This document shows, one piece after another, positions 1 to 36,432 of a DNA stretch of 64,000 nt (the first letter of the stretch is position 1; each line of letters starts with the position of its first letter). Both the position numbers and the translations under genes were made by a program. The stretch is from Trebouxia sp. TZW2008 (taxonomy: Eukaryota; Chlorophyta; Trebouxiophyceae; Trebouxiales; Trebouxiaceae). The DNA is taken from contig BDIU01000146.1 in NCBI GenBank assembly GCA_002118135.1, positions 248,001-312,000 on the forward strand. Direction: 5' to 3'. The notes below the pieces were generated by a model. It made no database searches. It was given only the letters and a program-made list of their open reading frames with translations, and had not been told where the DNA came from.

Positions 1-3000
1 AGGACGCCGACTCGATGGTGATGATGAACCCTCGACAGCCCAGAAAAGCACCGGATTTACAACCAACACTGCTACATGAGCAGAAGATTGCAGTAATGGA
101 AGAAATTCTGCAAGCAATGCAAATCTTTGGCCTGACTTGGACTACCGACAACTGAGAGGTATGATGCGGCATGCCACAGGCATGGCATCAGCTGCAAAAG
201 GGATGTAGACAGGACAAGAGATATACAGGCAGTGGAAAAGGTAACAAAAGCAGTAAGACAGTCCTGACACAAACTTATTTGCAAGCTTCAATTCATCTAT
301 TAGGGGAGTTCCTCTATGACTCTGTCAGGAAACGCAAGCAGTAGATCAAGTTTCTGCAGTTCTCTCGCAAGCACTGCCGCCAGTCAAATATCTGGCAGCA
401 GAATGAGAGTTTCAGACAGACTCATCGTCAAAACAGAATCCTGAAGACTCACCTGTTCCGCTTGCATGCCCTCAGCAAAGCTGCGGTCAAAGGCAGTAAG
501 GCTTGAGCTATGTGCATCCAGCGTCTGCCCAACTGTCTCATGGCAGCTAGCTGTTGCAGTGCTTGCCTCCTGCAGATGCTGTCTGGCAACTGCTATGGCA
601 GCTTGGGTGTGCTGCAGCATTGCATGGGAGGCTGCATGCTGCTGAGTGGCATACGTCTGCAGCTGCTGCCGTTGACTGTTTAGCGACTCTGTCAGGGCGC
701 CAAATGCAGTTTGCATCCAGGCAGCTGAAGCCTCCGCAGCCTGCATAATATTTCAGACTTTTGTGCTGTGCTTTGTTTTTGGATTAATTGATCAATTGAT
801 TTATGGTTTGATTGATTGACTGAAAGCTTGATCCATCAATCAAGTGCTTGACTGCATGACCGACCAACTCTCTATCTGAGTGATGAAATCACAACATGAT
901 TGGCAGATCCCGGTGCTCAAACACCAGGCAGGTGAAAGGTGTGCCTCACCCTTCATTGTGTGCCATACAGCAAAATCATGTACTCTTGCTGTGAGAGCCA
1001 TCAGCGCATATCAGAGGGTCAAAATCCTGAGTTTTGTGGGCGGATGCGCGTGGGCTCATCAAAACAGAAACTGACTCAGAAGGTCTGCATGACCCTGTGC
1101 GTCAATGCAGCAATATGTGCATGGTGTTTCACGAGTGACCCTAGGTTTACCTGATGTGATTGCTCTGCACTAGCTGTCTGCAGTCCAGCAAGCTGCTGCA
1201 AGTCCTGGGCAGCAGCCTGGTAGCTCTGGTGCATCGATGCAGCAAATGATGCATGCCTTTGGTGAGTGAGCATGAAGCATGCCTGATGTGCTTGCTCTGC
1301 ATTGGCTGTCTGCAGTCCATCAACGCAAAACCAGCCAGAGACTCAGCAGCCTTTGGCGCCAAGGTCTTGTCAACGCAGCCATGCACAGTGCATGATAAGA
1401 ACCCACAGGCCTACCTGATGTGCTTGCTTTGCACTAGCTGCCTGCAGTCCAGCAAGCTGCTGCAAGCCCTGGGCCGCAGCTATGCTGGCAGCATCCATGT
1501 AGCACTTCATGCACGGCTTTGGTGAGTGCGCATGAGACATGCCTGGTGTGCTTGCCCGATTTGCAGCAAGTCATGCGCTGTGCTTCATATGCCAAAAATG
1601 TACCTGGTGCGCTTGCTCTGCGTTGGCTGTCTGCAGTCCAGCAAGCTGCTGCAAGCCCTGGGCAGCAGCTATGCTGGCAGCATCAGCTGATCTGCTGACT
1701 AGGTTGCCCGCCTCTCCAACATGGCCCTGTAGCTGTGCTAGCTGGCCCTGCACGCATACATACCTGACTTGCTACTGTCCCTGTCGTCACTAAGCTTGCG
1801 GTTGTCACTAAGATTGCTATTGTCAGCTTGCAAGGTGGTGTTCAGCTAGCTGTGCTGGCTGGCCCTGAATGCACACAAAGCTTATACGCGCCTCTCAGTC
1901 TTGTGCAAATCAACTTGCATTTGGCAAGGCAGCAAGCAGTTTGATTTGCAATATTCACTTCATCAGTTGCCTTGATGATTTGAACAGCTGCGCTTCACAG
2001 CTGTAGGCTAAAGCAACGCAGCTGCTCTTGTCAGGCAGCGCATGTCTGAGCGTCACATTACTAAAGCACAGGCAACCATGACATATTGAGAATGATTGTG
2101 AGCTCGAGTGAATGTCTTGCTGGACGGCTGCTGCATGCCTCACCTGCAATGCTGCAAGATCTGCACCCTTCTGCTGCATAAACTGACTGGTCATATGCTG
2201 GATTGAGCTGTACAGCTGCTGCTGTTGCTGCAGGCTGCTTGCAACAGCGACCTCCAAAGCCTGCAGGCGCACTTCTGCCCCTTGCCTCAGCTGCTGCACC
2301 ACTTGGGCATTGGCACGCTCACGTGTGACTGATGTTTCCAACCTGCAAACAGCGCATGATGTGCATGGTCTATTGAATGATTTAACGATTTGTTTGATTG
2401 ATAAATTGCCTTGTTGGTTCTTGAAAGGTTGACCGAAGCACATGGTATGCTGTTAGTTCTGTGTCTGCCCCTTGGCTGCTGCGTCACTTGGGCATTGTCA
2501 CGCTCATGACAGAGTGACATGTTTAGTCTGCAAACATCACATGGTGTCCTGTCAGTTCACAGCTTTGCTGAACGAGATTTGAGTGCAGTCATGGAGGAGG
2601 TGCAGGTGATTGCAATGCTGGCGCTGTCATGAGTGACGACAATCATGATTTACCAGCTGGCCGCGCTGAATGAGCTATGCTTGATGCACGACTAGAATGA
2701 GCTTGCATTGGGGTATGGCAGAAGATGACACTGTGAGCTGCAAGGACAGCATATGGTGGTCTGGGTTGATGCAGAGCCATCTCACCTATCAAAAAGGGAG
2801 GTAGCCTCCTGAGCTGCGCCATCCAGCTCACTGCAAAGACTGCTGGCATGACCAGCCAAGGCATGCTCACTACGCTCATGGGTTGCAATCAGGAAGTCAC
2901 GTTCCTGAATGCCCTGCCGCGCAGTATTGAGGGCAGAGAGGGACCGTCGCAGCTCCTGAGCATGCATATCAGAGCGTTTGGACGTGGTGTAAGAAGTAGC

Positions 3001-6000
3001 TGTTGGGCAAAAGCTGAAGCAGCAAGACTGCTGTGCTATCCTGTTCTTGACAAGCTGTTAAATTCAATTGTGCAGCATTGCAAGGGGTCAGGACTGTACA
3101 AGGCCCTGATGCTGCTTTCACAGAGCACAATCAGCATGTGCAAGCATCTTTGACGCAGTCACCAAGCTAGCGGTGGAACAATCTACAGTCAGCAATATTT
3201 CAGGTCGTCGCCAGCAACACAGGGGTGCGTGAGGGAGGTTTCATTGCCAACGGTAACAGTAACCCAGGGCAATACATGATTGGCAAGTCGCTGAGGCATG
3301 CAACACTGCTGTGCCTGCTGTACTGTACCTCCTGTGTACTGTTCAACTCTGACTTGAGCTGCTCCAGCTCGTGTCTGCTCCTGTCTGCATAGATTTCCAG
3401 CTCCTTTTGCAGACTCTCCACGCGCTGCTGCAGGAACTTCTGCTCCTCCTGCAATCAGCACTCCAGCATTACCAAAAGACCTGCTTTAATTTGTGTCATA
3501 TGACAGCAACAATGAAGGCAACATGTACACGCTTCCCCAGACATTACCACTGACCAACTCTGGCGCAAATGTGTAACTTTGCGTCAAAGCAATTAGCTCA
3601 GTCATTTCACGTTTGCAAGCTGAGGGAGCTACAAGTGAGCAAAGCGCCCTGCCGGCTTCAGGAAGTCAAGCAGATTCTCAGCATTTCACAGCACAGTTGA
3701 GCACGCTATGCATGCAAGGCGTAACAACTGCATTTTGCAGCTTGAGACAGTCTGCCTGACATCTGGAAGTTTGCATCACAACAAGCATCAATTGCAAGTT
3801 GGGCATATCAGATGCACATTGCGCTTGGCCATGGACACAATGTTGTTTGTCATTGCACACCTGTTGGGATTCCCAATGATCAGCAGGCAGGTATATGCCA
3901 TTCTTCTCCCTAGTGGCAAACAGCTCCTCCTTGAGCTTGTCTATCTCGCTGTTTAGCTCCTTGATGTGAGCTGCCTTGGAGATGCGCTGATTGACCTCAG
4001 GCCTGTGCATACAGTCAAAGTGAGTCAGCATCAGAATGAATGGCATGACTGTCTAGAGCTCACTGAGAAACTCATGAGCTGCACACATGATTGATATTCA
4101 TGATGAGCTCAACCATCAGCAAGAGCAGAAAGTATCTGATGCTTCAAGATGCATGTCTGTCTTCATTGAATCACCCTAGACATAGCACGTCAGCAAAAAA
4201 GCATTCGAGTGCAATCCATCCATGCTGATGTGCTGCGTCATACCTGTTGCGGATGTTCTTTGCCCGATGTGCATAGTCAAGCGTGCTGAGGGTTTCCTCC
4301 TGGCACTGAACAGTTGGAGCAATTGTGGCTATGATGCAGGTCTTGGTGCGGCCTCCCAGTGAGTCACGCAGCAGCCTTGTCAGCTTGCTGTCACGGTAAG
4401 GGATGTGGCCTGACTGCTCCACCAGCGCTGTGATGACCCTGCCCAAGGTCAACAGGCTCTTGTTGATCAGACCTGCTTCCTTGGCCCGTACATCAACTGC
4501 TCCTGACCTGAAGCACTTCAATGCCACCTTCAGCATGCAGATCTACAGCTGCATTATGATGATGCTGGCCCCAGTCTTGAGTTGACACTGTGCAGGTGAA
4601 ATCAAGCCACCAATTGATATGTGTGTGTGCAGCGTGTCCATGTGCAACAAGCATGTCAATGCTTGGTGCACAATGGACTGTTGCAATGCAATGTCAAGCA
4701 GCATGCAAGCAGCACATATGCGCATGCCAATTGGGCTCAGCAGAGGATCAAGATGTTGCTGCTGCACTGCTTGACATGCTCCAGTGGTTGATCACCATGC
4801 AGTACTGACTCTTTGCCCAGGCTTGGAAACATCTGTACTTGCACATATTTTCCCCTCAAACGCCATGATTAAGCTGGTTTGGCAGCAGGTGACACGTGCA
4901 GCACTTGCATCATGCAGCTGCTGCTGATTCAGCTGAAAATCATACAAGTCTGGGCTTGTGTGAGCTTACCTGCCCACGTTTTCAGACCCAGCCAGATCTA
5001 CTAGGTACAGCTTGCCAACCTTGATGACATCTTCCCCTTCTGTTGGGGTCTCACGCATGTGCACCGTGATGCAAAACACACTGTGTGATCTGCTGGACTG
5101 CTTGTTCAGCAAAGTTTCTGCTGTCCTACGCTTGGCAGAACCTCTGTCCAACAAGGTGTAGATGTCAGCTGAGCTCTTGACAATGATCTCTTCCAGGCCT
5201 TGCACATTTACACCACTCTTATCTTCCAGCATACGCAGCTTCTGATTGCTCTTGCTTTCGCCAACTGCCAGCAAGTCTGTAGTCTCTTCATTGTACAGCT
5301 CAAGAAAACTGCACTTGACTGTGTACTCGCTGTTGATGCTGTCCAAGTGCTGAAAGATCTGGCTAATGGCCCTAGGAATAACACCTGCCACCTCTGAAAG
5401 ATCACGACCGTCTGTGGAATTGCGGTCACCACCCTCCATGGTGTACGTCTTGCCTGTGCCAGTCTGTCCATAGGCAAAGATGGTACAATTGAAGCCCTCT
5501 AGCACTTCAGAGACTATGGGAGCAATTGCCCCTGTGTATAGCCTTTCCTGACTGGAGTCTGGACCAAAAACCTGCGGCATCAAATGTCAATGTGATGCTG
5601 CAATTTGACACTACACCTGCAGAGCTACTTCTCGATGTGGACATGTTGCAGCCTGGTATTTGATGCAATGCTCCAATTTGGTAGAGCAGTCAAGCTCGAT
5701 AACAATGCAGCTCATTTTGGGCGGGAAAGACAAGTTGACCTTGTCGTAGTGAAAAGCACGACCCATGTGCTTGCCAGCCACACTTTGCATAAGCACCACT
5801 TCCTTGTTGGCCTCCACAACCTGTATAATCTGTGGTGTTCGACTGGCAACTTCCTGTTTGCTGCAGGGCCTGCAAGTTCAACATAACTAGTAAGGCTGTG
5901 CTAACCGTGGCACTACAGCTTCTGGCATTGCATGCACTGCTTTTTTGCATGTCAGGAACCTCACCTGCAACGCAGAATGACTTGCACGTTGACCGCGCCC

Positions 6001-6041
6001 ATAGAGCCATCCTTAAACCCGCCTGGGCCTTTATCGGCCAT
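1..6041 (-). CDS. Kinesin-5 (BimC/KRP125-type) mitotic motor, spliced, 3' end not in window
   Basis: Plus-end microtubule motor that cross-links and slides spindle microtubules. The start ATG at 6041 opens [20 protein letters not shown] followed by a typical kinesin first strand (VILRCR). Phase-compatible exons follow at 5740-5869, 4970-5571, 4244-4507, 3861-4002 and 3329-3448, then coiled-coil exons near 2786-2955 and further tail exons near 2100-2345, 1604-1750 and 454-746. Motor motifs visible: GQTGTGKT P-loop near residue 104, NKQSSRSHS switch I, DLAGSE switch II. The neck after the motor ([20 protein letters not shown]) and the stalk stretch [16 protein letters not shown] are diagnostic of plant kinesin-5. 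The stalk is Gln/Ala/Leu-rich coiled coil. No BimC box or stop codon was found, so the gene probably runs off the left edge; tail exon borders below 2800 are approximate. It is head-to-head with the CDC50 gene. Confidence 0.88.
1148..1695 (-). repeat. Tandem array of a kinesin-5 tail exon end with its donor (4 copies)
   Basis: On the minus strand four copies of an exon end reading roughly [19 protein letters not shown] stop at 1604, 1415, 1283 and 1151 (spacing 189, 132 and 132 bp). Each is followed directly by a splice donor: GTACAT, GTAGGC, GCATGC and GTAAAC. Only the copies at 1604 and 1151 keep a clean open frame over a longer stretch; the middle two are more diverged. They could be successive real exons, alternative exons or relics. 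Confidence 0.75.
2280..2545 (-). repeat. Two-copy duplication of a kinesin-5 exon start with its acceptor
   Basis: The exon that starts after TTTGCAG near 2345 ([21 protein letters not shown]) has a second, degraded copy about 185 bp upstream on the minus strand (2465-2533), again after a TTTGCAG acceptor and reading [14 protein letters not shown] before the frame decays. Exon start and 3' splice site were copied together. Confidence 0.65.
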
Positions 6042-6523
6042 CCCTGCAGCTCACACCGAATTCGGTGTCCGCAAGCAGGTCCAAACGCTTGCTGCGACAG
6101 GTCCGTATAGCTCAAGAGCACACGAGACTCCAGAGAGCGGCGGCACGGGGCCGTGCTAGGTGCGCAGTGGTGATCTGCTGATCGAGCAGTTCAAATTGGC
6201 ATCGTACGCCGTACACAATACGCCGTGCACGCGCCGTAGAAATTTGACGCCAGCCGTTGTATTGGAAGACTTATGCAATTTCTGAGCCAGTGCTGCCATA
6301 GCTGTTGCAGAAGTCAGCATCTGACGCTTGTGACAGGCTGTTAGCGCATTTCAGCACTGCATTTAGGCCGTGACTAAGTTTCTTGGCTGCATCGGCAATG
6401 CATGATCTGTGACGCCCGAGCGTCTGGTTTCGGAAGCCCGATCAACGGCTTAGCTACTGACAGCTGCAGCTCGAACAGCCCCACGCATAGACGGCCCGAA
6501 TAGCGAATTTGAGCTAGCACATC
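6042..6523. promoter_or_regulatory. Divergent intergenic region, kinesin-5 / CDC50
   Basis: The 482 bp between two start codons facing away from each other must hold both promoters. It contains a GC-rich stretch at about 6197-6240 with the hexamer CGCCGT three times at short spacing. No TATA box can be assigned with confidence. Confidence 0.45.
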
Positions 6524-9500
6524 ATGTGCGTATGGGCGATCAGAAGGTTATGGCCCAAACGGCTCCATAGAGGGCCGAGAAAGGATGGGAAAGACAGAGC
6601 GTACAAGCGTTTTGTACACCAGGAGTTGGCAGGCTATAGTCCTATCATGACGGGCAACAGAGTCTTGGCATTCTTTCTAGTTGCAGCTGTCATTTTGATC
6701 CCGCTTGGGGCAGCGATCCTGGCCGCCTCACTGAGTGTTGTGGAGTACAAAGTGAGATACGACAATGTTGGGGTCTTGAATAGTAGCAGCAAACAGCAGC
6801 AACAGCAGACATTGTTGGCTGCACCAGATAACACTGGCATCACTCAGACTGTCAGCATAACGACAAGGAAGAACATGAATGCTCCGGTATGTGCTCTGAC
6901 TCCAGCATCTTGCCAAGCATCGTCAACTGCCATGCATGCTCCAAGTTCCTGTGTGCCTGACATGATCTTGCTGATGCGGCACGCTTTTCAAACATATTCT
7001 ATTCTGTGCAGGTTTACCTGTATTATGAGCTGCATAGTTTCTACCAAAATCACAAACGGTATGCTCATAACCCTTCTCCTGCGTTACATGTTGTCACCAG
7101 CAAAGACTGTAACGTGAGCTGCACATGTTGTACCAAGATCACTCACAAACATGATACGCTGACATGCTCATGCTGAATTGCTATCATGCTTTCACAATGT
7201 CAACAGCAAAGCCATGCTGTTGATTGCATCAACGTATGCAATGCAATGTGCGTTCACTGCAGCTATGCCAGTAGTGAAGCTGTGTTGTAAGCTGTATCAA
7301 CCTGTGACATGTTGTCTTTTGTCCTGCAGTTACGTCAGGAGTTTAGTGTCATCACAGCTAGGTGGTGAAAACAAGGCGCCAAACACCCTGGGCACTTGCG
7401 CACCACAGCAGTATTTTGCAAACACTGCTGGATTTGATGACCTACCTGATAACGCTGCCATTGACCCATGTGGCCTGATGCCATATTCGTATTTTAATGA
7501 CAGCTACACACTGACTTCAACTCCAGCTGGTGGCGGTACCTCCACAGCTGTGGTCTTGGATGTAGGTCCTCTACCATGTTTGATGCATTGTAGTCATGGC
7601 TGCTTGTGCTATTCTCACAATGCTTGAGACAGAAAGCGCATGCAACTCCCGCTAAACCCCAGCTGGCTGCAATTCTGATGCCAAACACTTATATTTCTGC
7701 ATCTGTTGCACACTTCATGCGAAACATTTGCATGCATACTACATGCAGCAACTAATCGCTCATCTGCGCTCAACAGACATGTGCTTCTGGCCAACTTCAT
7801 CACTTCTTGTCCATGTTTATGCTTATCCTTCACCCTGCAGCTGTCTTGATACAGCAGTCATGCAGCTGTGCATGTACCAAAGTCAGCATTGCAGCCCTTG
7901 CACCTCATTCGATGAGACTTGGCATTGTCCCTGCTCTGCAGGAAAGCAACATTGCATGGTCATCAGATCACACTCAGTTGTACGGGGACTACCCTCCAAC
8001 CAACTTCAATCTGGCTCAGTACCCCCAGTACAGAGGAGGGGGAACCATCACAGGCAGTGTTCGTGATGACGAGCACTTTCTGGTGTGGATGAGACCTGGT
8101 GCAGCAAGGACTGTGCGCAAGCTGTATGGCAGAATCGACAGCAACATTCCTGCAGGCAAGGCAATGCATAGTGTGCAGTAATTTGCTGCATAAGGTTGTA
8201 ACTGTATGTCTGGTGTGGATGGGCCCGGGTGCAGCAAGAACTGTTTGCAATTTGTACGGCAGAAGCAACAGCAACATTTCCGCAGGTAAGGCAATGCCTA
8301 GTGTTTGATTTGCCAGTGCCTTGGTCTGCTGTGTAAAGCTTGTGTGAATGAGGCTGTGTGCAGCAAGGACTGTGCGCAAGCTATATGGCAGAATCAACAG
8401 CAACCTCCCTGCAGGCAAGGCAATGTGTACAATTTATCATGCCAGTTTGTTTCATCGCAATGTGCATTTGGTATGAATGAGGCTGTGTGCAGCAAGATCT
8501 GTGCGCAAGCTGTATGGCAGAACCAACAGCAATATCCCTGCAGGCAAGGCCATGCATAGAGTTTGATGCGCCAGTGCTTGGGATTGCATTGTATTTTTAA
8601 TGTGGATGACACCTGGTGCAGCAAGGACTGTGCATTATCATCAGCAACATTCCTGCAGGCAAGGCAGCGCGCATGCACAAATATGCTAATGCCTTGCCAG
8701 CGGCTTAGCAGCACCATGAATTGTCAGTCTCTGTTGCGAGCCTCAGGATGCCGAGATAGCAGACTTAGCGTCGGTTCCGTCAGTCATCGTAACTGTCACA
8801 GTAGGTTCTCAGCGGCTGATTTTATTACAAATTGGATGTAGCATCAGATAGCAGCTGACCAGCAATGCAAAAGCATGTTCTGCATGATGACGTTGCAGGG
8901 CAGAGCTGCAATCTGCAGGTCACTGTGAAGGGGCTCCAGCATTACAACAGCTATGTAACACAGCCTGTCTGCTATGGCCAGCATTGAGTCATTTTGTTTG
9001 AAACATGCATAAGCTGCTGTTTCCATAATGGTGAATGTTGAATCTACTGCTATTTACGAGACTCTGCTTGTTTCTGCAGGTACAACCATCACTATGCAGA
9101 TTGCCAACCGGTATAACACATACAACTTTGGCGGCAGCAAGGTGAGCAGACATTCACAAGTATTACACTATAAACCATCAGTGTGTTTGAACTTCAATAT
9201 ACAAAGTCATGAACTTATAAGGTCATCATAAGCATGGCTGGCACGATTATGTTGCAACAAGGCCAAATCATTCTTGGCATGTTTTGCTGTCTGTTGCATG
9301 CATTAGTCACATCCAACACGTTGCTCACTTTTATGCTTGTCTTCACCGTTGATCAGCTTCCTTGGGTGCACTAAGCATGCCCTGCACATGCAGGTTTGCT
9401 TACTGAAAATAGCTGCGTTCATTGTGCAATGCTGCCGAGTTTCAGCTCTTCTTGATTTGGTACATTGAAAGTCTGCAAAGCTGCTCTGGCTCCAGATACT

Positions 9501-9726
9501 TTTTCGAATTTCTCACCCCTGGGTGCTGCTGCAGTGGCTTGTGCTGAGTACAAACTCTTGGGTTGGTGGACACAATAATGCTCTAGGAGGCATCATGCTC
9601 ACAATAGGCGGCTTGGCTTTCCTGACAGCCATTATCTTCTTCTGCTCTTATCACCTCAACAAGAAGAGGAGATCATACGCTGATCCAGCCTATCTTTCAT
9701 GGAATCAGACCAACCTTGTGCACTGA
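6524..9726 (+). CDS. CDC50/ALIS family P4-ATPase (flippase) subunit
   Basis: Beta-subunit of P4-type lipid flippases (ALIS in plants, Lem3/Cdc50 in yeast), needed for ER exit and activity of the ATPase. Six exons close in frame: 6524-6886, 7012-7058, 7330-7561, 7942-8155, 9080-9141, 9535-9726, giving 369 aa. Features in order: cytosolic basic N-terminus, first membrane span near residues 46-72 (VLAFFLVAAVILIPLGAAIL), exon VYLYYELHSFYQNHK (the family's YYxLxxFYQNHR motif), large extracytosolic loop with DPCGLMPYSYFND, the LVWMRPGAARTVRKLYGRI block, NRYNTYNFGG, STNSWVGG, second span, and the C-terminal YLSWN motif. Exon 4 ends in a GC donor (GCAG|GCAAGG), forced by frame because the glycine codon is completed by GT of exon 5. 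An array of partial copies of exon 4 lies in the following intron. Between residues 88 and 100 there is a Ser/Gln run. Confidence 0.93.
8080..8670 (+). repeat. Tandem array of the 3' half of CDC50 exon 4 with its donor (5 copies)
   Basis: The end of exon 4 (LVWMRPGAARTVRKLYGRI to IPAG plus donor plus about 55 bp of intron) is repeated head to tail. The donor dinucleotides lie at 8156, 8286, 8415, 8544 and 8659, a period of 129-130 bp (last 115). Copies 1, 3, 4 and 5 carry CAG|GCAAGG; copy 2 carries the canonical CAG|GTAAGG. Copies 2 to 4 still translate as GAARTVCNLYGR, AARTVRKLYGR and AARSVRKLYGR in one of the three frames; copy 5 has lost the KLYG part. Only copy 1 is needed for the protein. 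Confidence 0.85.
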
Positions 9727-15421: not shown

Positions 15422-15661
15422 GCTGCGCGATACAGCTTAATGCGTTTCAGACTCAGGTCGCTTGCTTGTGGTGTATCTCGAGGTGGTGCCACGATATCTG
15501 TGCACCAGTCACGCAGCCTACGGGCTATGCAAGGCGCTTCCGAACAGCGACACAAGCAGTGTACACAAATGGTTTCGGAGCGCATCCTTCCTTGAGCGCG
15601 GGCAAGAGACAACGCGGTCGCGCAGCTTGCATCGTGCTTCGCCAGTTGCAGTTCACAGAAG
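15422..15661. promoter_or_regulatory. Divergent promoter region, RlmN-like / LYAR
   Basis: The 240 bp between opposite start codons must hold both promoters and both 5' leaders. No core element was assigned. Confidence 0.4.
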
Positions 15662-17046
15662 ATGGTATGGTTCGTGTGCGATGACTGTGGTGACTCGATC
15701 AAAAAGGTACTGCAGCAGAGCTCGTCTTCTGGGTTTGTTGTCTCCTCGCCGCGCCGTCAACTTGCGCGTCTGCGACAAACTTGTAAGGATTGTGTTGGTT
15801 GCAGCCAAAAGTCCCCCAACATTTGCAGCAATGCTCCGCCTCCCGCTTTACCTGCATCGACTGTAGTCGTAGCTTTGACCGGCACAGCGTGAAGGTAGGC
15901 CTTTGCCTGATCGTGAAGTTAGAGACTCCTCAGACCGTTGGGTCCATTGCCTGCTGGCCTGAACGACCCTGGAGCTCCATAAATGACGTTGTGGCAAAGA
16001 TCAAAGTCCGTCTTCCATGCAGGGACATGCCACTTGTGTGACAGAAGCAGACAAATATGCAAAGGGCGCCACCAAGCCAGGTGGTTATGCAGCAGCGGGC
16101 TACTACAAAGACAACTCTGGTGCAAGTGTTGCTAGCGCCCAGCCAGAGCCAACCACAGCCAGTCCATTAGACACTGCATGCTTGTCCACCCGCCCTCCCT
16201 GGACATGTAGTGTGTGCAATGTGACTGTCACCAGCCAAGACACCCTGCTTGGACATGCAGCTGGCTTCAAGCACCGCCGCAGGGTACGTCTCAACTTCAG
16301 TCTTTCTTTTCCAATCTGATTGCTCAAAAATCACAGGCAGTTTGTGCTGTGCTCTTTGCTTCCATGCTGTGTTGCTATGATGGGATGCTGTACAGCGTGT
16401 TCAGCTTATCTTGATAGACAATTTTTGCTGCCTTTGCTCAGCAGCCATGTGTTGCCATAGTGGTTTGCTCAGCACCAACTGTGCTCAGCCTTACTTACAA
16501 CAAATGTGGATGCAGGTGAAAGCTGCAGCAAAAGAAGCAGAGAGCAGCGATGCACCACAAAAAGCTCCAGCAAAAGAGGCAGAGAGCAGTGAAGCACCAC
16601 AGAAAGCTCCAGCCAGCCCAGTGAACCAGACAGATGCAGCTCCTGTTCCTGCTGCAACTGTTGGCAGCAAACGAGCAGCTGACACAACCACTGACACTGC
16701 TGAGGTGCCTCCCAAGGCCAAGAAGGCCAAGAAACAGAAGAAGACTGATGCTGCACCTCAGCCAGGGCAAGATACAGTGTCAGCTGATGTGTTGGCAACA
16801 GAAAGCCGAGCTGTGCCGTCACAACAGCAGACGCTTGACAAGGTCAAGTGGAAGAAGCTGGCGCAAAAAGCCTTGAGAGAGCATAACGGTGCAATGACGC
16901 TATCAGAACTGCAGGTGGCATTATGTCTTGCTGCTCATGTTCCAGAACAATCGACAGCTGAAGCCAATGCCTTGATTGCTGCTAGAGTGAAAAGCAGCTC
17001 TCAATTCAAAGTGACAAAAAGAACAGTATCTCTAGTCGCACCCTAG
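15662..17046 (+). CDS. LYAR-type nucleolar zinc-finger protein
   Basis: Homologue of LYAR, a nucleolar protein tied to rRNA processing and cell growth. Four exons in frame: 15662-15706, 15805-15894, 16023-16283, 16516-17046 (308 aa). The N-terminus MVWFVCDDCGDSIKK and the next exon (CSASRFTCIDCSRSFDRHSVK, then GHATCVTEADKY) form the two zinc-binding LYAR units with Cys and His pairs in the expected spacing. A third finger CSVCNVTVTSQDTLLGHAAGFKHRRR is of the C2H2 (U1-like) kind. Then follows a low-complexity Lys/Ala/Glu-rich part with a 14-residue unit (KEAESSDAPQKAPA) occurring twice and a bipartite basic run KAKKAKKQKK, a likely nucleolar signal. The last 75 residues (VKWKKLAQKALREHNGAMTL onward) match the winged-helix-like C-terminal domain seen in LYAR proteins. 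Confidence 0.88.
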
Positions 17047-18079: not shown

Positions 18080-21000
18080 TCAAGAGCTTTTGATGCCTAC
18101 GCCGCCAAGTAAGTCTGTCAGTTTGTCAACCACTGATGGGCTCCTGGCAGTGTCTGCATCATTCTGCTCCTCACCATCTTCTTCTTCGTCATCTTTGTCA
18201 GCAGCATCTGGATCATTTTCTTCAAAAGACCCTAGAGCTGAAGCCTTTCCAGCCTTCTTCAACGTGGACTGCAACAACAGCACACCTTAGACCTTGCTAT
18301 CTGGCAGCTGCTATCGCTGCGCGATGCACCACATCTTGCATTGGCGTTGTTGAAAGAGACCATTGCAGCATGTTGACACAAAGAAGGCTATAAGTTACGT
18401 CGCTTATGTTGTCTTGACCATTAGTGAGCAGTGCGCGGGCGAGTTGGAAAACAGCCTAGACAATGCGTGTGACATGACGGCATGCAGCACTTGGGGCTTG
18501 GCAACAGGCACTGTTTTGTAATGCATTCAAGGTGTATGCACAACAAGGGATCTTGCAATCACATGCATGCATTCTCCAATTGGTGAGGCAGCTCTGCTTG
18601 CCTTGATGTTGTCAATGGCAGTTTCAGGGATCTCATTGGCATCCAGATCCAGCAGCTGCAGTTGCTGCTTATCTGCCACAGCTTTAACAACTGCCATAGC
18701 TCCAGCACGCCGTATCTACAGCATGCACATACCGTTTAGGTGTATCTGCAAGCATGCACATGCCATCAAAGCCTAGCAATACACTCATACCGCGTCAGTA
18801 TCTGCAAGCATGCACACGCCAGCAAGACCTAGCAACAACTCATAATGCATAGGAGTCTACAACCATGCATATACTATCAAGAAAAGCAAAAGATGAATAC
18901 TGTGCAATAAACTGGTCAGTGCTGCTACCTAGGGTGTGAGCAAGTCCCACAAGCACGCCGTTCGTCAAGGCTGTGTTTACAAGTGTTGGGTAAAAGCAGA
19001 ACTCATTCTGGGCCAGATCAACAGTTTGCAGGGCAGGCAAGGCCTCTGGAGGCCCATGGAGCAAAATGGCTCCTCGCTCTCAATTGAACAGAGCATGTTG
19101 ATCAAATTGCAATAACTTCACGCACCAATTTGCCAGTCACTTGGCAAGTTGAACCACCCATTGAGTCAGTAGCACACCTAATCTGAGCCAGATCAAGGCA
19201 GGTAGGGCTTGTAGAGGCCCATTAAGCAAAATGGCACCTCAGTCTCAAGTGAGCATAGCATGTTGATCAAATCACAATAGCTTTACGCACCAATCCTTCA
19301 GTCAAATCACAAGTGACAAACCCGTTTAGGCAGTAGCGCACCTGATTCTGAGCCAGATCAGAGGCTTGCAAGGAAGGTAGGGCTTGCAAAGGCCCTCTGA
19401 GCAAGATGGCTCTTCAGTCTCAACTGAACATTGCATGTTGATCAAATCACAATAGCTTTACGCACCAGTTTGTCAGTCACATCACAATTTGACAACTCAT
19501 TCAGTCAGTAGCGCACCTGATTCTGAGCCAGATCAAGGGTTTGCAAGGCAGGTAGGGCTTGCAGAGGCCCGCTGAGCAAGATGGCTCCTCGATCTTCCAA
19601 CTCATTCTCTCTGAGATTCAGCTTCTGCAGGTTGGACTTGTTGCCTAGGGCTGCAGCCAGCTGCTTGGCACCTTCCGGTGTCACCTCATTCAAAGCTAGC
19701 TCCAGTTCTTCTAGTTGTGGAGCTGCAACAGCAGGCATTGCTCAGGAGGACAAAGTTCTGATGCAGCTGAAGAAAGGCGCCAGCAGCAATAATGCTTTGA
19801 TTTGGCATCGATTTTGGCAGGGTAAGATATCTGAGTCATAAAGCTTTCACAGGTTTGCAAACTGTCAATTGATAAACAGTCATATAATAGAGCATGACTA
19901 CAACAGTCAGCCTCAAGCGCAAAGGCTTTACCTAGCCTCAAGTCTACCAAGTCGCTCAATGCTTGCGCATGCAAGCAGCAACACATACACAAAGCAATGC
20001 AATGTCATTTGAAGTACGTCCTAGGTTGCTTCTCGTAATAGGGACTCCCATGAAGGCGCCCAACAATGTTGGGTTTGTACAACTCTTTTGCTTTTGTTTC
20101 TGAGGAACATAGCTCTTGAGATAAACAATCAGATGTGAAGCGTGAGCTTTTCGTGAGAGTTTTTGTGATTCAGCTACAATAAGCAATCACCTGCGTCTGT
20201 GAGAGCCTGAGCAATGGTGCTAACCCCCTCATCTTCAAGAGAAGTGTCGTTGAGGTTCAACGCTCGCAAGTGTGGCTGGCCTTTGAGCATGGCAGCCAGC
20301 GATTCTGCAACCTCCCCAGTCATTGGGTTGTCGCTCAAGTCCAAGCGCTGCAAGCAGTTTCCTGGGAAAGCACAACACAAAGATTTCAGACAGCTTTCTC
20401 ATTTTACTCTAAGAGGAATGATGGTGATCTTTGCTAGGTCCAAGGTTTGCTTCTTCAACTCCCAGCTCAAGACTCTGCAACCTCCCCAATCTTTGGGTTG
20501 TCGCTCAAGTCCAAGCGCTGCAAGGACTTGGACTCTCGGTTGTGCTTGTCAGATCCTACATGCTTTGTTTGCACACCCCGAGCTAGTGACTTTGCAATCA
20601 TGCCAGTCATTGGATGATCACTTGAATCCAATCGCTGCAAGCAGCTTCCTGCAACAGTATTTGATGCCAAGACAGCTCCTCACGGATGCAGGGCAAAAGC
20701 TGTCAGCAGTTGTAGCTGTTAAAGCCTTCCCATTCTTTCCCCACAACGCCAGTTAGCAGCTCTGCAATCTCCCCAATCATTGAACTCTTGCTGAAGTCCA
20801 AACGCTGCCAGCAGCGGTCTGAAATCACATCAAGGCAGCTCTCACAATATGCAGAGCAAATCCTGGCGGAGAATGTTGTACATGCCACATCCTGAATGCT
20901 GTGCCCTCACGAGCATTCCACATAAATGATTCCCCTCTAACATGCTCAGGGCAAACATGGCTTGGTGCCTTTCACATATTGATAAACTGTGATGAATGGG

Positions 21001-24000
21001 GCCAGCTCAGACATATCTTGGGCCCTGGGATGTTCGAGCTGAAGTTTGACACATTTGAGCTTGGCACGTACATTGAAGGGCCATGGCACATCTAAGGTGG
21101 CACCATGCGACAATGTCATGCATGATATGCATCAGGTGGTACATGTCAGGTGGTACATGACATCCATATTGTGTTCGTGATCACACAGCAAATGCCTTTT
21201 GCTGTAGCTTGCTAACAAAGCAATGGACCACAAGTAGACAGCGACTGCTTGACTGCATGTGCAATCACGCAATATCAAGCAGTGTTGGGCTCCTGGGCAG
21301 CACATGCACATCATGCAATTTCATGCAGAAGTCTGTCTGTCTGTCTGTCAGCCGACATGATGTGTCAACTGCTGATGAGATCAGGCACTACCTGGTGTCA
21401 TGCTGTTTGCAAGTGCTATGCCCCCATCAAGCCCTACTCGGGATGAGGCCATTCTGAATGCCTCAAGCTTTGGTGCGCGAGCCAAGATCTGCATATCATG
21501 CCAACCTTGTTGAGACAGCTGTCACACAGAAGTCAGCAGAGCAAGCACAATAAGTAAGCACATTGTCCGCAGTGCAAACTGCCAGATGCAAGTGAGTGCA
21601 TTCAGCTAAAGCCAGCATAAGCAGTGGCATGTATGGTTGAGATTGTATGTGGTGCATGTTGACATCAGGAAGTGCAGATGGCAGGACAACATTGGTCAGG
21701 CTGCATGTTGCAGACCCGACAAGTACAACCTGTCACCAATCTGATGCAGTCGGACAAGCATGCATTAGAGTCTAATAGTCAGTCGAATTTGCACTTGCTT
21801 TTGAGCAGGTCACCATTCTGTTCATCTTTTGTGAGCCAACCGCATATAGACATTGACGCTGCATGCAAAAATTGTCTATTCCGTGTAACAGAGTCGCTGT
21901 GTAGTAGGCTGCAAATTCACGGGCATTGATTTGCTTGCGAGCCTTCACTTTTATTGCATTCCCCTTATATTTGCACAGAAGCACAGATGATAGTGTCCTG
22001 CACACCTGTTGCAGCAGTTCAAAGTGTCAGGTGATTACAATTGGAAACGCCTTAAGAGCTCACATCCTTGCTTGCGACCCCATCAACAGCCCCATAAATG
22101 TCAGCACGCTTCTACCATATGAGCATAGCCACATAACAGACACTTACTCAAGACATCATATGCTCAAAGATCAAGAGTGTCTTCTGTTGAAGTGGGAGGG
22201 CGTGGTGACAATGTGGCTGCTTTGCTGGGCAAGGATGTCATCAAGGCTTGGGTTTGCGACAAAGCAAGCTGCAAGCTGTTCACGATTAGGGTGAATGTGT
22301 CTGGGAGGTTTTCTGTGGCTCGTGGCATCATCTTTGGCTTTGAGGCCGAGTGAAGTTTGTATTGTGGTTCTATGGCTTGATGTTTGGGTTGTTCTTTGTG
22401 GTTGTTGTCACTTGTCTGCAGGATCCTGCTTCAATTGATTGTATGTTAAACAAAACATGAAGTAGATGTGTGCTTTGGAGGAAGTTCAATCTTTGAGCAT
22501 ATGATGCCTTGAGTGTCTGTCATGTGGCTACGATCATGTGGTAGAAGCATGCTCACATTCATGGTGCTGTTGTTGGGATTGCAAGCAAGGATGTGAGCTC
22601 GCAAGGCGTTTCCCATTGCAATAACGTTACGGTTTCAACTGCTGTCATAGGCAGCTTGCTACTTCAACAATATGTATAAGCTCGAGTGTTGCAACAGCAC
22701 TACAGCCAAGAACAATCTGATGACTTGACTGGGCATGTTAAGACGTTAGTGTTCAAAATCTAATGGGGCTCAAAAAATGGTCACTATCACCTTGCAAACC
22801 CAGACACTTGGAAGACAATCGTATATAAGGATCTCACCTCCCTCCATACTCAATGCAAACAGGTCAGGACAGCACAGGACCAAATTGGTTGGAGACAGTT
22901 GATTGCTCCAGTACATACCTAAATGGGCCTGCTGAGCCTATCTAGCACACATAAAGAAAGAAAGAAAGAAAGAATGAATGAAAGAATGAATGAAAGAATG
23001 AATGAATGCACGCACAAATGAATGCATGAATGACTGACCGAATAAACGAACAGACGGACGAACGCATGAATGAATGAAAGAAATATCACCTTAGCAATGG
23101 CAGCAGCTCCAGCATCATCGCTCATGTTGTTGTACAACCTCAGGCTTCTGAGCTCTTGGGCATTCTGTATCAGCTCCGCCAAGGAGGTGCAGGCATTGAT
23201 GGAGCAGCCCACATTCTGAAAGGCCAATTGCTCTAGGGCAGGCTGCAGCGCAACACAACGGGCTTAATGACAGTTGTTTCGAAGCAGCTTTACTGCACAC
23301 CACAATACGAGTCAACAGCTGTTTCTGAATACGCAAAGGGCTGAACAGCTATTGATGGAGCAGCCCGCGTTATCAAAGGCCAGCTGCTGTAGGGCAGGCT
23401 GCAGCGCGACAATAAAGGCTGGATGACAGTTGGTTTTAAACAACTTTACTGAACGCCACAATATGGCTTAACAGCTGTCTTGGAACACCACAATAAGGGC
23501 TGAACACCTAATGATGAAGCAGCCCACGTTCTGAAAGCCCAGGTGCTCCAGGGCAGGCTGCAGCACCACAACAAGGTCTGAATGGCTATTACAGTAAACT
23601 CTCTTTGTAGAGACTGCTTTGTTGCCATCAGATTGGTCCTTACATCAAATTGTCCTTACTCAGAGGTATCATTGCAGTCAGAATGCAGCAATTGGCCAAT
23701 GATCCTCATGTCGAGATTGTCCTTACAATGAAGGTTCACAGTACACAGAACCTTAAGAAGGTCTGAACAGTAGTCAATGAACGCCACGCAAAGGGCTGAA
23801 CAGCTAATCTAGACCAGGCTGCAGTGCCAAGCTGGACAGCTATGACTGAACATGCTCAACGATGATCACAGGCATGACCTGTCCATTTGCTGGAAGGATG
23901 GCACTCTGCCTTATTTGCTTGTGGTTCACAGATTTGATGCCCAGGCAGGTGCTGTGCGCTGCCCTTATCAGCAAGGACTCATGCTGGAAGCAACCAACAA

Positions 24001-25450: not shown

Positions 25451-25602
25451 CGTGACGCAACAGGAAGACTGTTGGATGTCGCCAATCGCACAACGCTAGT
25501 CTCAAGACCAACGAGTGCACAGAGCTGGGGGGTATCAGCAGTCAAGTTTGTTGCCAACGACTGCTGCTCGATGCGTTTAAGCTGCAAGCAGAAGCTGAGG
25601 CG
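25451..25602. promoter_or_regulatory. Divergent promoter region, RanGAP / F-box gene
   Basis: Only about 150 bp separate the two start codons if the F-box start is correct, the tightest head-to-head pair in the window. Confidence 0.35.
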
Positions 25603-26794
25603 ATGATCATGAAGATGAACAGACAATGCAGCGTTTCGTCAGCTTGCACTTGGCTCAGCAAGGACTTGGCTCTGTGCTGCGTATGTTCGAAAGCCAGCTG
25701 CATGCTACAGACCGGACCGGACGCGCTAGCGGACGAGTTGTGGCAGAACATCCTTTGCCACTTGTCTTTGACTGAAGTGCTGAATAGCAGCCGGGTCTGC
25801 AAAAGGTGGCATAGCATCATTCAGCACGATGCAGTATGGCAATGCCTGTATGCAAGTGAGTTTGGCTTGCCGAAAGCTCCCAGTCTGATCACGTGTTGGA
25901 AGCAAGCTTTCTGCAAACGGTGAGGCTTCGATCTTAAGCAAAGCATGGCCCTGCTGCATACCTTGCAGTTCGGATCGCGTGACACATTGCACCAGCATCT
26001 GCAAGGGATGCAGATCTGCATTTTGGAACCTCAGCATGCAACCAGCTGTACCTGTTCAGGGCACACTTGGAGCGGGTACGGCTACGACAAAAACGCCAGG
26101 CTAGTCTCTTAAGATGGCAAAGCAAAGCGCAGGTCTGGCTGCAGCAACTGTATGCTGTAACCTACTGCAATCGTCCACTCAGAACGATCCACCTTTATAG
26201 ATCAGTGGGTCTGAATATCGGCAAGCAAAGGCCAATCTAGCCCAGGAACAAGCCAAGTTGGCCAATCGTCAGGAGGAGCTTCAAGTGCTGAAGCGCCTCA
26301 GGTACGCATTCAACAACTATGTCTTGTCCACAAGCTTGTCATAGCTAACCATCCACAATGCTTGTAGGACAAGTGTCAATAGTGAGTGTGACAATCATGC
26401 AATGCTTGCAGAATGACTGCCAATGCAACACAGTGCTGGACTCCAGCTGCTGTCTCCAAAGGCTTTGAGAAGGTCCTAGCTCAAGCCCCAATTGAGGCAA
26501 GTTGTCTTTGCTGAAGGGGCACTCACAGCCAATGTCAGAAGTCCTGTCTACCATGTGTCAGTTCCAGCAATCAATTTTTTATGCGTTAAGCCAGGATCAA
26601 GTACCTGACATGGCTACGCAACACTGCCTTTGAAGCTTTTGCTTGTGTTGCAGAGCAATTGGCAGGTTGAGCGCCTGCAGCAAAGCATACTCGACAGCAG
26701 GTTGCATTGTCAGACTCTTGAAAAGAGCTTGCTGAGAAGCAAGCAGGATCATGATAAGTCGCTGGGCCGCTTGAAGGCTCTGCAGGGAGCTTAG
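25603..26794 (+). CDS. F-box protein with coiled-coil C-terminus
   Basis: Probable substrate adaptor of an SCF ubiquitin ligase. Five exons close in frame: 25603-25919, 26060-26132, 26201-26301, 26412-26496, 26654-26794 (238 aa). The F-box (about residues 38-80) reads DALADELWQNILCHLSLTEV, then LNSSRVCKRWHSIIQHDAVW, with the usual Leu, Pro-less start and the VCKRW signature. The rest has no recognised substrate-binding repeat: it is charged helix (AHLERVRLRQKRQASLLRWQ; NLAQEQAKLANRQEELQVLK) and a coiled-coil end (ERLQQSILDSRLHCQTLEKS). The donor of exon 4 is GC (GAG|GCAAGT), forced by frame. The initiator is the first in-frame ATG; a later Met at 25609 or 25615 is possible. The substrate is unknown. 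Confidence 0.75.
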
Positions 26795-27842
26795 TATGCT
26801 GCAAATGCCAGAGCAGCCTTCAGCGCAAGCAGAAGCTGCTTGCTTGTATCAGTGGGACAGCATAGACAAATAGACACCTCCAGATCAGTGTCCAGTTGCA
26901 TGCTTATGTTTGAGGGGTTGCTCATCATTGCATTGTGCTGTCTTCAAGCAAGTTCACGTGCAGGTCTGTATAGCTTTTGACCTGCCCGACTGCTAACAAA
27001 GCACAGAGTACATACAATGCAACACCAATGACCCATTTATGTGAGGAAATGTGGCCCATAAGTGATTACTGAAAAGGCCGCTCTTGGATGCATTCTAGAC
27101 CAATTTAAGTCTGTGTGTCAGATAGGACGTGCGTGTCAGGTAGTCTCGCTCAGGCTTTTCATCGTTTTGCATCATACTTACTGATCCTTTTTGACGCTGA
27201 CCCTTCTCCAGTTACTTGATAGATGAGCTATGCTGGTTCATGTTACATGTAAAGACAGCTCAAAGAGTTGCCAACTAAACCTTGCTGACCTGCAATATTC
27301 CTCTCACTATCAAGATATACAATGTTGGTAGAGTGCGCAATGCAGCACAATGCAACACTGAGCTGCTTGGAACTGCTTGCCAAATTGTCTCTATCAGGCG
27401 CCTGATGTGTGTCTCACTTGACAACAAGTGGCTGAACACTGGGAGAACAGTGCGTTTTGATGCTGACATAGACTTTCTTGTCAGATGCTGGGACAGCATC
27501 AGAAGAACTCAAACACTCATTGTTCTTGAACCCCATATCACAGCATCAACACAGTGTTCAGCCGATAGGCACAATGTTGGAATGTAAAGCACATGGATGG
27601 GCAGTAACAGCTGGACTAGCTGTCATTGCTCCTGTAGCTGCTGTACAGATAGGCAGGCATACAAAACACAAAGTCAGGAAAGCCCTGACATAAATGACAC
27701 AGGAGAAGATCTGTGCAGCCCATGCCGAAAGCAGATGTACTGTGATGTTCAATGGGACTGAAGTGCAGCCTACGCAGCAGAACCATGTTGCTGCAGCGAG
27801 GGTGATGTTCAATGCAGCTTGCACACGCCTGATATTCTGAGC
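26795..27842. other. Convergent intergenic region, F-box / SmD2
   Basis: About 1 kb between two stop codons. Open frames at 27282-27587 and 27478-27693 have no recognisable domain. Nothing else was seen. Confidence 0.45.
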
Positions 27843-28328
27843 CTATTTGGGATTTCTGAGAACAAGGATGACAGAATCACCACGCAGAAACAACTTGCTG
27901 ATGAAGCGATCCTTGTTTACAGGCTTAGCACCCTTCTTTCCTCGCCCTGTTTTTGGCACCTGCAAAATTCCAAAGCACGTTACAGTGCAGATCGCCTCTT
28001 TCGAATGCACAGTTCCACAGAGTTATGACAAAGTCTGCCACACACCTCAGTCCACATCTCCTTGACGTTTTCCAAAATCATATTGCAGTGCCTGTCAAAG
28101 GCCTTAACGCGGCCCAGAAGCTTGCGGTTGTTGCGACAGTTGATCAGCACCTGCGCTACAAATCCAAGTGACCAACAGCTCTGAACACAGCATGCAACTG
28201 AAAGCCAGACAACAAAGGCATGCCTGAGAGTTGCTCTTGACACTAGTGGTTAGTACGGAAAGAGGCCCAGTCTTGAAGGCTTCCTCTTCCCGCTTCTCTA
28301 GCTCGTCCACCGTCGGGTGCGTGGCCAT
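27843..28328 (-). CDS. Spliceosomal Sm protein D2
   Basis: Core subunit of the heptameric Sm ring on U1, U2, U4 and U5 snRNAs. Three exons: 28224-28328, 28046-28150, 27843-27959 give 108 aa, the usual length. The N-terminus [20 protein letters not shown], Sm1 motif ([20 protein letters not shown] then [13 protein letters not shown]) and Sm2 motif ([15 protein letters not shown]) are nearly invariant with animal and plant SmD2. Intron 1 has a GC donor (CAG|GCATGC), with exact 105-nt exons on both sides. It is followed on the same strand by the TXNDC9-like gene about 0.9 kb upstream. Confidence 0.96.
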
Positions 28329-29245
28329 GCTTGCAGCCGAGAACGCCTGCTTCTGGCAGTGGCAATGTCACAGTAGATCGTCACAAACTGGGACACCACA
28401 AACAAGTTTCGTATCGGCCGCAGTTCGCACTTGGGCTGCAATCGACAGTGAGGCTGTAAATGCACACTCGCGGTTGGCTATTGCTTTCAGGTGCAACGTT
28501 TCAGCAGACTGAGCACTGCAATGCTGCAGGTTGAACGACGCTTGTTCAAACCCTAAGGCAACAATGAAACCCCAGCCAGGAAGAAATAGCTTAGTATTTT
28601 TGGGCTGCCCTATCTTCGGGAGCCATTAGACTTGATCAGCTTCGAGACGTTTGGCCTAAGCATGCAAGTCAAGCAGCTGATAGCACCGTTGAAGCCCTTT
28701 TCCTGTAGACCCCGAGTTCAGCACAATTGCGGGGCCCTGTCACAGTGTGATTACAACTCACACGTGTAAGTGCACTTACATCATAAAGATCCAACGGTAT
28801 GCTAGCTCATCAAAATTCATGTCACGTCTATCTGTACATAGCGATTGTCCTGACTTGTGTAAGCTCAATTCAAGCCTGAAGCCAAATTCCCGATGATTAA
28901 CAGCACATGAAATGAGTCAGCATGTTGGTTCAACAAAATTTGCAGGCCAGATCTATGTGCCTGACATGCACATGCATTTGGCACGCTTGAAGTCATAACA
29001 TGCAGGCACAGCAGCCCAAGCATGATCTGCAAAGGCAGCCAACAGCATTTCTGGTTTGGCACAGAGCAGGCATTTGTGTTCTCAGTCGTGGAAGCACCAG
29101 TACATAAGATCTGAGTAGGCTGAAGGGCCACAGCAGATGCAGCTGTATACAGTTGAGCCTGTGGAACCCAAGGCACGTCCCTCACTGGCATCTGCATCCT
29201 AACATCAAAAGCAACAGCGCTGACACTTTGCACAGTCACACAACA
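28329..29245. other. Intergenic region upstream of SmD2
   Basis: This stretch holds the SmD2 promoter and the 3' end of the TXNDC9-like gene. No exon was recognised. A GC-rich palindrome-like stretch GACCCCGAG, GCACAATTGC, GGGGCCC lies at 28710-28738. Confidence 0.4.
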
Positions 29246-30528
29246 TCAATCAAAATCTGAGTCTTCATCTGATGACACCCCTTCAGCGCTTTTGCGCACA
29301 GAATGGCGCACATGCTCAGGCATATAGTTGTCATCTTCTTCTTGATTTCTTTTGGGAGCATGCACAATGCCTGCATCAGACAAGATTGTGTCAAGGCAGT
29401 CTGTGTCCATCAAAGTCATAACTGATATAGCAGGAAACAGCCTTGCTCATGCTTGCGAGCTATCAATGCAGTTGTGACCAAGCAAAAATCCGTACCAGAC
29501 TTGAGCAAGCGCCGCTCAACTGATGTAGTTGTGAAGTCGTCAGTTGCTCCATAATCATCAAACCCTACAGCTCTATCACAGGCTACCCCATTCCTGAAGA
29601 AGATGAGGCAAGGCAGCATCTTGACTTGCAGCTTGACCGTAAAGAAAGGCGCATCCTGCACTGGTGCAGGAAGGTAGCAATGCTCAGTGTTGTCAATTGG
29701 CATAGGCCTCGATGATGCATTGTTCAGAGATTGTGCTGCCGTGCGCTAGCCAAGTATACAACATGACATGCTTGGCATGCAGGTATTGATCATCTTAGCT
29801 CAGCCATCGAGCTTGTCAAGCTGAACAATGAAAAGCAAATGGGTAGCCAAGAACTCACCGGTGCAGACACTTTTATAAAGCGTGTGTCAAAGTATTTTCG
29901 TGCCAAAATGCTAAGATGCTTGTCAAGAAGCTTGCATCTTTCGAAGTCTCTGTGGAAAAAGTGGCATACAACATGATCAGTCTTTGTGACTGCTTCCAAG
30001 AAGTCACCTGCAGCACAAGTTGCTGCGTCAGTGCTTGCTGCACTCTGTTTGCTCAATACAGTAGCTTAGCGCACATTGCTAACCCTCTTCAACTTCTTGG
30101 TAATCCCCATGCCCCTTTCGCTGCAACTGCTGCCGCTTCTCGTTTTCTTGCTGGAGCATTGCTAACCTCTCGGCATGCAATCTCTCAAGTTCTGGATCAT
30201 CAAGCAGGTCATCTATGTCAACATCCCGCACTTGCTGATGCTGTCTGCTGGCTGCCTCTTGGCTTTCCATGTCCTGGACAAGCAAGAACATCAGGGATGC
30301 ACACTAAAGTCAACAATATACATGCTGTCGACTGCCAGGATTTTAATCGGACCTCTTTGTAGTCTCTAACAGCAGCCAACATAGCATTGCCATAGGCAAG
30401 GCTGTGCATTCGGCTCTTGAACTTCTCAGGATCCTGCCAGCGGACCCATCAAAGCTCAGGGCTAATTCATTGCAGACAAGCAGAATTGTGACAGGCTGTG
30501 TGTCAGCAAACCTGACCATGTTCTCCAT
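29246..30528 (-). CDS. TXNDC9/phosducin-like thioredoxin-fold protein
   Basis: Member of the phosducin-like family that modulates the CCT chaperonin in actin and tubulin folding. Six exons close in frame: 30517-30528, 30353-30433, 30084-30273, 29859-30007, 29496-29655, 29246-29421 (255 aa). Seen: an N-terminal helix region (MENMDPEKFKSRMHSLAYGN); an acidic helix DVDIDDLLDDPELERLHAER; KGHGDYQEVEEGDFLEAV; a thioredoxin-fold core HVVCHFFHRDFERCKLLDKH with a single Cys in place of CxxC, as in the family; VKMLPCLIFFRNG with the cis-Pro loop; VGFDDYGATDDFTTTSVERR; and an acidic end SSDEDSDFD. The first exon of only 12 nt is inferred from phase. The gene is head-to-head with the ArfGAP gene. Confidence 0.9.

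Positions 30529-36432
<5,904 letters not shown>

Follow-up and report, generated by a model that had tools for sequence, protein, structure and literature searches.

Serial copies of exon borders in the introns of Trebouxia sp. TZW2008

Genes commonly undergo internal tandem duplication, which can carry splice sites along with the sequence that is copied. In tandem exon duplication, including that of mutually exclusive exons, exons are copied head to tail together with their splice sites, and minisatellites are composed of many copies of a unit of about 10-60 bp, irrespective of gene structure. Introns, too, are said to arise in this way, the tandem genomic duplication of an exon segment bearing AGGT having reportedly been put forward by Rogers in 1989 as a source of intron gain. 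This AGGT tandem-duplication route is reviewed in PMC3443670, as far as the accessible part of that review goes. In addition, variable internal tandem repeats across exon-intron boundaries alter splicing in human segmental duplications (PMC2812944); these are near-identical paralogues, and the accessible part of that paper reports neither an excess at borders nor genome-wide serial copying. Introner elements, according to the portion available of PMC9860276, are repeated sequences with splice sites that lie in introns. In the literature searched, as far as its texts were accessible and with subscription papers largely outside the scope, no description of a serial amplification of exon borders was found, nor any counterpart of the border bias, the density and the copy order reported here.

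This paper describes such copies in the genome of Trebouxia sp. TZW2008, starting from a window, that is, a whole stretch of 64,000 nucleotides at positions 248001-312000 of its contig. The assembly comprises 68.5 Mb in 527 contigs with a GC content of about 50%; a Trebouxia genome of 69.1 Mb and 49.7% GC is given in the accessible part of PMC12712428. The sample amounts to 304 kb: the window, 100 kb around it and 14 pieces of 10 kb from 14 other contigs.

The relatives of these arrays are known ones, namely internal tandem duplication and intron gain by tandem duplication. With internal tandem gene duplication the arrays share the direct orientation, the position in the adjacent intron and the spacing of mostly 100-200 bp, and by these features they belong to it; they differ in that the copied borders stay in the introns as near-neutral relics, are found at about 18% of the exon edges and are biased towards borders. 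With AGGT intron gain they share local tandem duplication within genes, the product being partly spliced out. There, however, a new intron is formed whose splice sites are two copies of one site, whereas in these arrays the copied border already exists and the intron just lengthens. Within an intron, the donor region resembled the acceptor region in 13 of the 307 introns tested (out of 397), against 0/307 controls, and only one of the 307, a predicted 122-bp intron at 8033 of piece L025, had the exact AG|GT register, so AGGT intron gain was rejected as the general cause. This one intron (L025:7722-8462), with donor CAG|GTGGGG and acceptor TTGCAG|GTA in register, is itself a candidate for intron gain by tandem duplication. 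Introner elements have in common with the arrays that splice sites occur in intron repeats, but introners are similar sequences at many loci and the arrays are locus-specific: no pair with cross-locus similarity was found among 134 arrays, and a whole-genome search for further loci of three arrays gave none, each lying at one locus. A mobile element or introner was rejected on these two grounds. In tandem exon duplication the whole exon is copied, whereas 78 of 93 junction arrays copy one kind of border and 15/93 both; with stops at the neutral rate in the 73 intronic copies analysed, tandem whole-exon duplication does not describe them. A coding or intronic minisatellite does not describe them either, as the median period is 161 bp, 64 of the 96 edges whose copy reaches the junction have a single intronic copy and the copies are biased towards borders.

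Gene models and the nine arrays of the window

Junctions were predicted from the sequence only, by a purpose-written unsupervised gene finder trained on the 304 kb. It converged on the donor CAG|GTRAGY and the acceptor TGCAG|G and predicted 456 exons; the median length is 143 nt for exons and 377 nt for introns, and three exons crossing the end of a piece were clipped. Of three settings, 'boost 10' was picked for recovering the Pfam-supported CDC50 exons, the other two having fused genes and placed CDC50 on the wrong strand. The placement test was run with all three settings, and all other tests with boost 10 only. Repeats wholly within predicted exons had a period that is a multiple of 3 in 8/10 cases, as expected if the predicted exons are coding. 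Furthermore, 5 of 20 exons with edge copies, drawn from the 48 of usable length among 102, had a Pfam family match on their own (E <= 0.01), the sequences queried being short.

The nine arrays that the first-pass annotation had claimed in the window are real: self-blastn of the window gave direct repeats at 9/9 places, with a shortest period of 130-190 bp in each array, and TRF detected four of them (8079-8633, 19049-19590, 23197-23584 and 34990-35509). The identities that it had given to the kinesin, CDC50 and ArfGAP genes were confirmed by the Pfam domains Kinesin, CDC50 and ArfGap. For the gene called RanGAP, LRR domains were confirmed and the name is the annotation's alone.

In the kinesin-5 gene, with its kinesin domain at 4174-5586, the donor-side array (1151..1690, minus strand) consists of the modelled exon edge at 1604-1690 and copies at 1415-1495, 1283-1323 and 1151-1216 with identities of 0.90, 0.90 and 0.89, and it lies at a single locus in the genome. 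The donors are CAG|GTACAT at 1604, CAG|GTAGGC at 1415, CAG|GCATGC at about 1283 and CAG|GTAAAC at 1151, so that of the four donors described as kept three are GT and the fourth is GC. In the acceptor-side array of the same gene (2262..2524, minus strand) the exon edge ends at 2342, and the copy at 2464-2524 has its AG displaced by one base. A kinesin-5 exon is 77% identical to Coccomyxa subellipsoidea, with four further matches at 97-100%. The genome as a whole has 146 exon-level kinesin-motor matches (E <= 0.001) on many contigs, which indicates a large kinesin family with dense introns, and it has 47 exon-level matches to the chlorophyll a/b-binding family, which together with the Coccomyxa match place it among the green algae.

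The donor-side array of the CDC50 gene (8079..8666, plus strand), whose domain lies inside 7163-8178, also occupies a single locus in the genome. It has five copies with donors after 8155, 8285, 8414, 8543 and 8658, that is, in steps of 130, 129, 129 and 115. The five donor motifs reported for it are indeed present, but 4/5 are CAG|GCAAGG, of the GC-AG type, which differs from the earlier reading, and one is CAG|GTAAGG. The GC donor was missed by the gene finder because only GT-AG introns were allowed. Nearly identical GC and GT donors stand side by side in this array as a natural series.

The LRR gene carries a donor-side array at 19002..19602 (minus strand), again single-locus, with the exon edge at 19517-19600, in an exon with an LRR match (19517-19720), and copies at 19342-19420, 19194-19245 and 19002-19080; GT is kept in the first of these and lost in the other two. 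Its acceptor-side array at 20280..20814 (minus strand) has the exon edge ending at 20361, in an exon with an LRR match (20192-20359), and copies at 20471-20529, 20581-20648 and 20750-20814. A further acceptor-side array at 23165..23584 (minus strand) has the exon edge ending at 23242 and copies at 23319-23398 and 23512-23557, both with CTGCAG. AG stands at the aligned position in 2/3 and 2/2 copies of these two acceptor arrays, respectively.

In the ArfGAP gene (plus strand) both copies of the acceptor-side array at 34267..34697, with the exon edge from 34589 and copies at 34270-34349 and 34458-34530, keep AG, and both copies of the donor-side array at 35780..36119, with the donor after 35831 and copies at 35937-35980 and 36054-36103, keep GT. 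Between them lies an array at 34990..35516 (plus strand) that is wholly exonic, with a period of 189 bp = 3 x 63 (63 codons). It lies within one frame, which is open throughout the predicted exon 35001-35831, and this agrees with the statement that one array has become exon.

TRF also detected short repeats elsewhere in the window: a 31-bp repeat of about 2.2 copies with the donor-like AAG|GTAGGT at 54661-54729, codon-multiple repeats in possible coding sequence at 16519-16613 (42 bp) and 63436-63532 (15 and 30 bp), and a TCAG microsatellite of about 22 units with 98% matches at 32591-32677.

Density of the copies and their preference for exon borders

The arrays extend far beyond the nine and occur throughout the sampled parts of the genome. 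Self-blastn of the 304 kb gave 134 local direct-repeat clusters (period 40-1000 bp), one per 2.3 kb. The count was again 134 for best non-overlapping matches of at most 600 bp in period, and arrays were present on 15/15 pieces examined. When each exon edge (at most 100 nt) was aligned to its own adjacent intron, with the 99th percentile against other introns as the threshold, a same-strand copy was found for 127 of 723 edges, against 1% in controls. Donor edges contributed 65 (of 362) and acceptor edges 62 (of 361); searched in reverse orientation, the same intron gave a copy for 1.1% of donor and 0.3% of acceptor edges. The median distance from copy to real junction was 149 nt on the donor side and 164 nt on the acceptor side, typical values being 100-200 bp, and recognisable edge copies make up 6.3% of the predicted intron bases. 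The median intron measures 558 and 622 nt with a copy but 353 and 351 nt without one, a difference that arises in part because longer introns present more target. Copies on the wrong side were found in 10/224 and 9/227 cases (4-4.5%), above chance, and copies in the next-but-one intron in 4/203. The period of border-spanning repeats was a multiple of 3 in 28/118. In addition, the density differs greatly from region to region (chi-square 110, 30 df), with a hot spot in piece L020, where 13/18 exon edges have a copy. There is also a cold stretch, comprising positions 40001-64000 of the window and the first 6 kb of piece L008, with a copy at 0/82 edges; in most other 10-kb bins of the window's contig 7 to 44% of the edges have an intronic copy.

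A predicted junction lies inside a copy in 93 of the 134 arrays, while random placement gives 64.6; the other classes were noncoding-only (17 observed, 46.7 expected), mixed (13 and 15.6) and exonic-only (11 and 7.2). Among the 22 arrays of at least 88% identity, 19 were junction arrays, and the noncoding, mixed and exonic classes had one each, against expectations of 9.1, 8.7, 2.9 and 1.3. For the classes of at least 0, 80, 85 and 88% identity 0/1000 placements reached the observed junction or noncoding counts, and for the 90% class (n = 12: 11 junction, 1 mixed) 1/1000 reached the junction count and 2/1000 the noncoding count. The two other gene-finder settings gave the same outcome (0/500 each). 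Comparison with shuffled positions, which the first-pass annotation had proposed as a check, thus shows that in the 304 kb arrays overlap predicted junctions beyond random placement in every identity class tested.

A stricter test compared 365 exon edges of 80 nt with those 80-nt windows from intron interiors that are unlike exon edges (574/659). The rates of copying were 23.3% for edges and 10.3% for intron interiors at scores above 14, 20.5% and 6.4% above 18, 19.5% and 4.2% above 22, and 14.8% and 3.7% above 30, a 2.3- to 4.7-fold excess at the edges. An apparent preference would also result if tandem duplication took place randomly everywhere, duplications inside exons being purged, those within introns alone decaying twice as fast and junctions being dense. 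Junctions are dense in these models, as the median exon and intron lengths indicate, the exon-internal periods do reveal a filter, and any tandem duplication that moves exon into intron necessarily includes the splice site, a point of geometry that the earlier reading had omitted. Against this, a null simulation with random tandem duplication, exon constraint and two-sided intron decay, in which small indels only are modelled, gave edge/intron ratios of 0.70-1.09, so that geometry and decay, as modelled, fail to explain the edge excess; moreover, the bias peaks in the class of highest similarity, given above, where decay matters least. Pure random placement is rejected by the placement tests and the null simulation, and we regard random duplication followed by such filtering as rather unlikely.

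If repeat borders ignored the junctions, this would have spoken against a process centred on them, and here the picture is mixed: on the exon side the ends range between about 40 and 150 nt, and on the intron side about 60% of the copies are without homology past some 25-30 nt. Of the two interpretations originally offered, a recurrent process, which would be centred on exon borders, is supported by the sequences; the decay of the copies gives little backing to the other, selection for competing splice sites.

Decay, order and structure of the copies

The decay was followed in 73 exon/copy pairs with an intronic copy, 52/125 having been set aside since the copy overlaps another predicted exon. 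At codon positions 1, 2 and 3 the divergence was 0.124, 0.113 and 0.243, a pattern near that expected for a neutral copy facing a constrained exon. Position 3 nevertheless exceeds the simple neutral model (0.15-0.20), and synonymous codon differences numbered 267 where 172-211 were expected; this synonymous excess could come from mutation bias or weak constraint. In-frame stops in the copies amounted to 13 in 1537 codons, the neutral expectation being 13.5-17, and with stops at this rate the idea that the intronic copies are coding exons was rejected. Retention of splice sites was scored in 66 pairs whose alignment reaches the junction, a crossing rule that favours retention for both types of site: GT was kept in 23/30 intronic donor copies, close to the neutral value of about 77% (0.88 squared = 0.77 at 12% divergence), and AG in 34/36 acceptor copies, where about 28 were expected neutrally (one-sided p = 0.006). 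Because donors faced the identical rule, the acceptor excess is a small point in favour of the earlier statement that splice sites outlive the coding frame, a statement which otherwise mostly fails, donor GT and stops being at the neutral level. Selection for multiple competing splice sites or for decoy exons, which that statement was meant to suggest, could account for the many copies with good splice motifs, for the acceptor excess and for the synonymous differences, although weak constraint would give the last as well; the neutral level of donors and stops argues against it, and we consider it highly improbable. As judged from their sequences, the copies for the most part have the look of ballast, not of functional splice sites.

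The order of the copies was examined at the 35 edges with at least two intronic copies. The innermost copy is nearer to the exon in sequence than the outermost in 26 cases, the reverse holds in 7 and the two are equal in 2 (p = 0.0013), and the pooled within-array correlation is r = -0.27 (p = 0.012). Mean identities by order from the exon are 0.82, 0.78, 0.82, 0.80 and 0.84 (n = 35, 35, 11, 5 and 2), so longer arrays do not show a monotonic gradient. The step between successive copies is about the same as the first step (medians of 145 and 152), and this, together with the greater similarity of the inner copies, fits birth at the border and displacement inward.

The units themselves are less regular. 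Homologous intron flanks were found in 11/24 pairs with a core identity of at least 0.88 and in 16/38 and 8/27 pairs of the following similarity classes, far fewer than the 95, 82 and 63% of a neutral simulation, and in the remaining flanks no residual homology above same-intron controls was detected; a weak residual signal (z 3.9-5.3 against other introns) was dropped, as it vanishes with those controls. Copies of one array are 0.758 alike in the exon part and 0.625 in the intron part (46 pairs). Either the exon part is refreshed by the exon, or the copied block ends near the splice site, or indels larger than those modelled have struck the intron. The first of these would hold if the duplications were old and their exon-derived halves were homogenised by gene conversion from the exon as a fixed donor while the intron halves drifted. 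Gene conversion of this kind agrees with the greater likeness of the exon halves, with the fact that roughly every second pair with an exon part at least 88% alike has lost its intron flanks and with the tendency of the nearest copies to greater similarity, but the lost flanks are without residual homology and some arrays, such as that near L003:75-700 (0.97 and 0.98), are alike over the whole unit, which attests to fresh full-length duplication; we therefore take it to be unlikely. The second would hold if a double template switch copied short fragments, consisting of an exon edge and 5-30 nt of intron, and inserted them 40-100 nt away. Many pairs have a non-homologous spacer, for example L020:2098-2344 with 95% identical blocks of 104 nt that lie 39 nt apart, and such spacers, like the missing intron flanks, count in favour of template switching. 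Contiguous arrays occur too, however, reverse-strand copies are not in excess, and the distance depends on the copied exon length with r = 0.28 (68 pairs) instead of the 0.60 expected if fragments were placed independently, which speaks against insertion at independent distances. Template switching is accordingly judged quite improbable.

A proposed serial border duplication and the growth of introns

We consider it about an even chance that border-straddling segments have been serially duplicated head to tail, with introns growing from their exon edges. The duplicated segments, about 100-200 bp long with a mode near 150, would lie across an exon-intron border and be copied head to tail, and repeatedly so, while the real splice site remains where the reading frame requires it. 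The extra exon edge and splice site would be left in the intron, presumably spliced out, and would decay roughly neutrally. The border would be the birthplace of new copies, by which older ones are displaced further into the intron, and introns would thereby lengthen from the exon edges. The bias would then be one of birth, duplication starting more often in or beside exons than within introns, and would not stem from the exon homogenising its copy later on, and the step of 150 bp may reflect a repair or replication intermediate of the size of a nucleosome or an Okazaki fragment. That exon-internal duplications survive mostly in frame indicates that they are filtered, and the exon duplications that remain to be seen would then be those spanning a border. 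The copies, their orientation, spacing, density, border bias, near-neutral decay and nearest-to-farthest gradient are all observed on the predicted gene models. The lost intron flanks, the non-monotonic gradient, the wrong-side copies and the uneven density count against serial border duplication, as do the acceptor AGs and synonymous sites, which deviate from the simple neutral model. A bolder view, in which a standing process aimed at exon borders extrudes copies of edge and splice site in nucleosome-sized steps and contributes substantially to intron sequence, is put forward only tentatively and is, on balance, doubtful.

The origin of intron sequence and the differences in intron length between lineages are open questions to which these arrays relate. 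About one in six exon edges has a roughly datable relic of its own border, which corresponds to hundreds of events per megabase. Edge copying would be an unusual route of intron growth, and if the bias is mutational, duplication would be linked to exon chromatin or replication structure. Furthermore, it would imply a large load of decoy splice sites in this genome, and near-identical donors and acceptors at fixed distances would make the choice of splice site directly testable.
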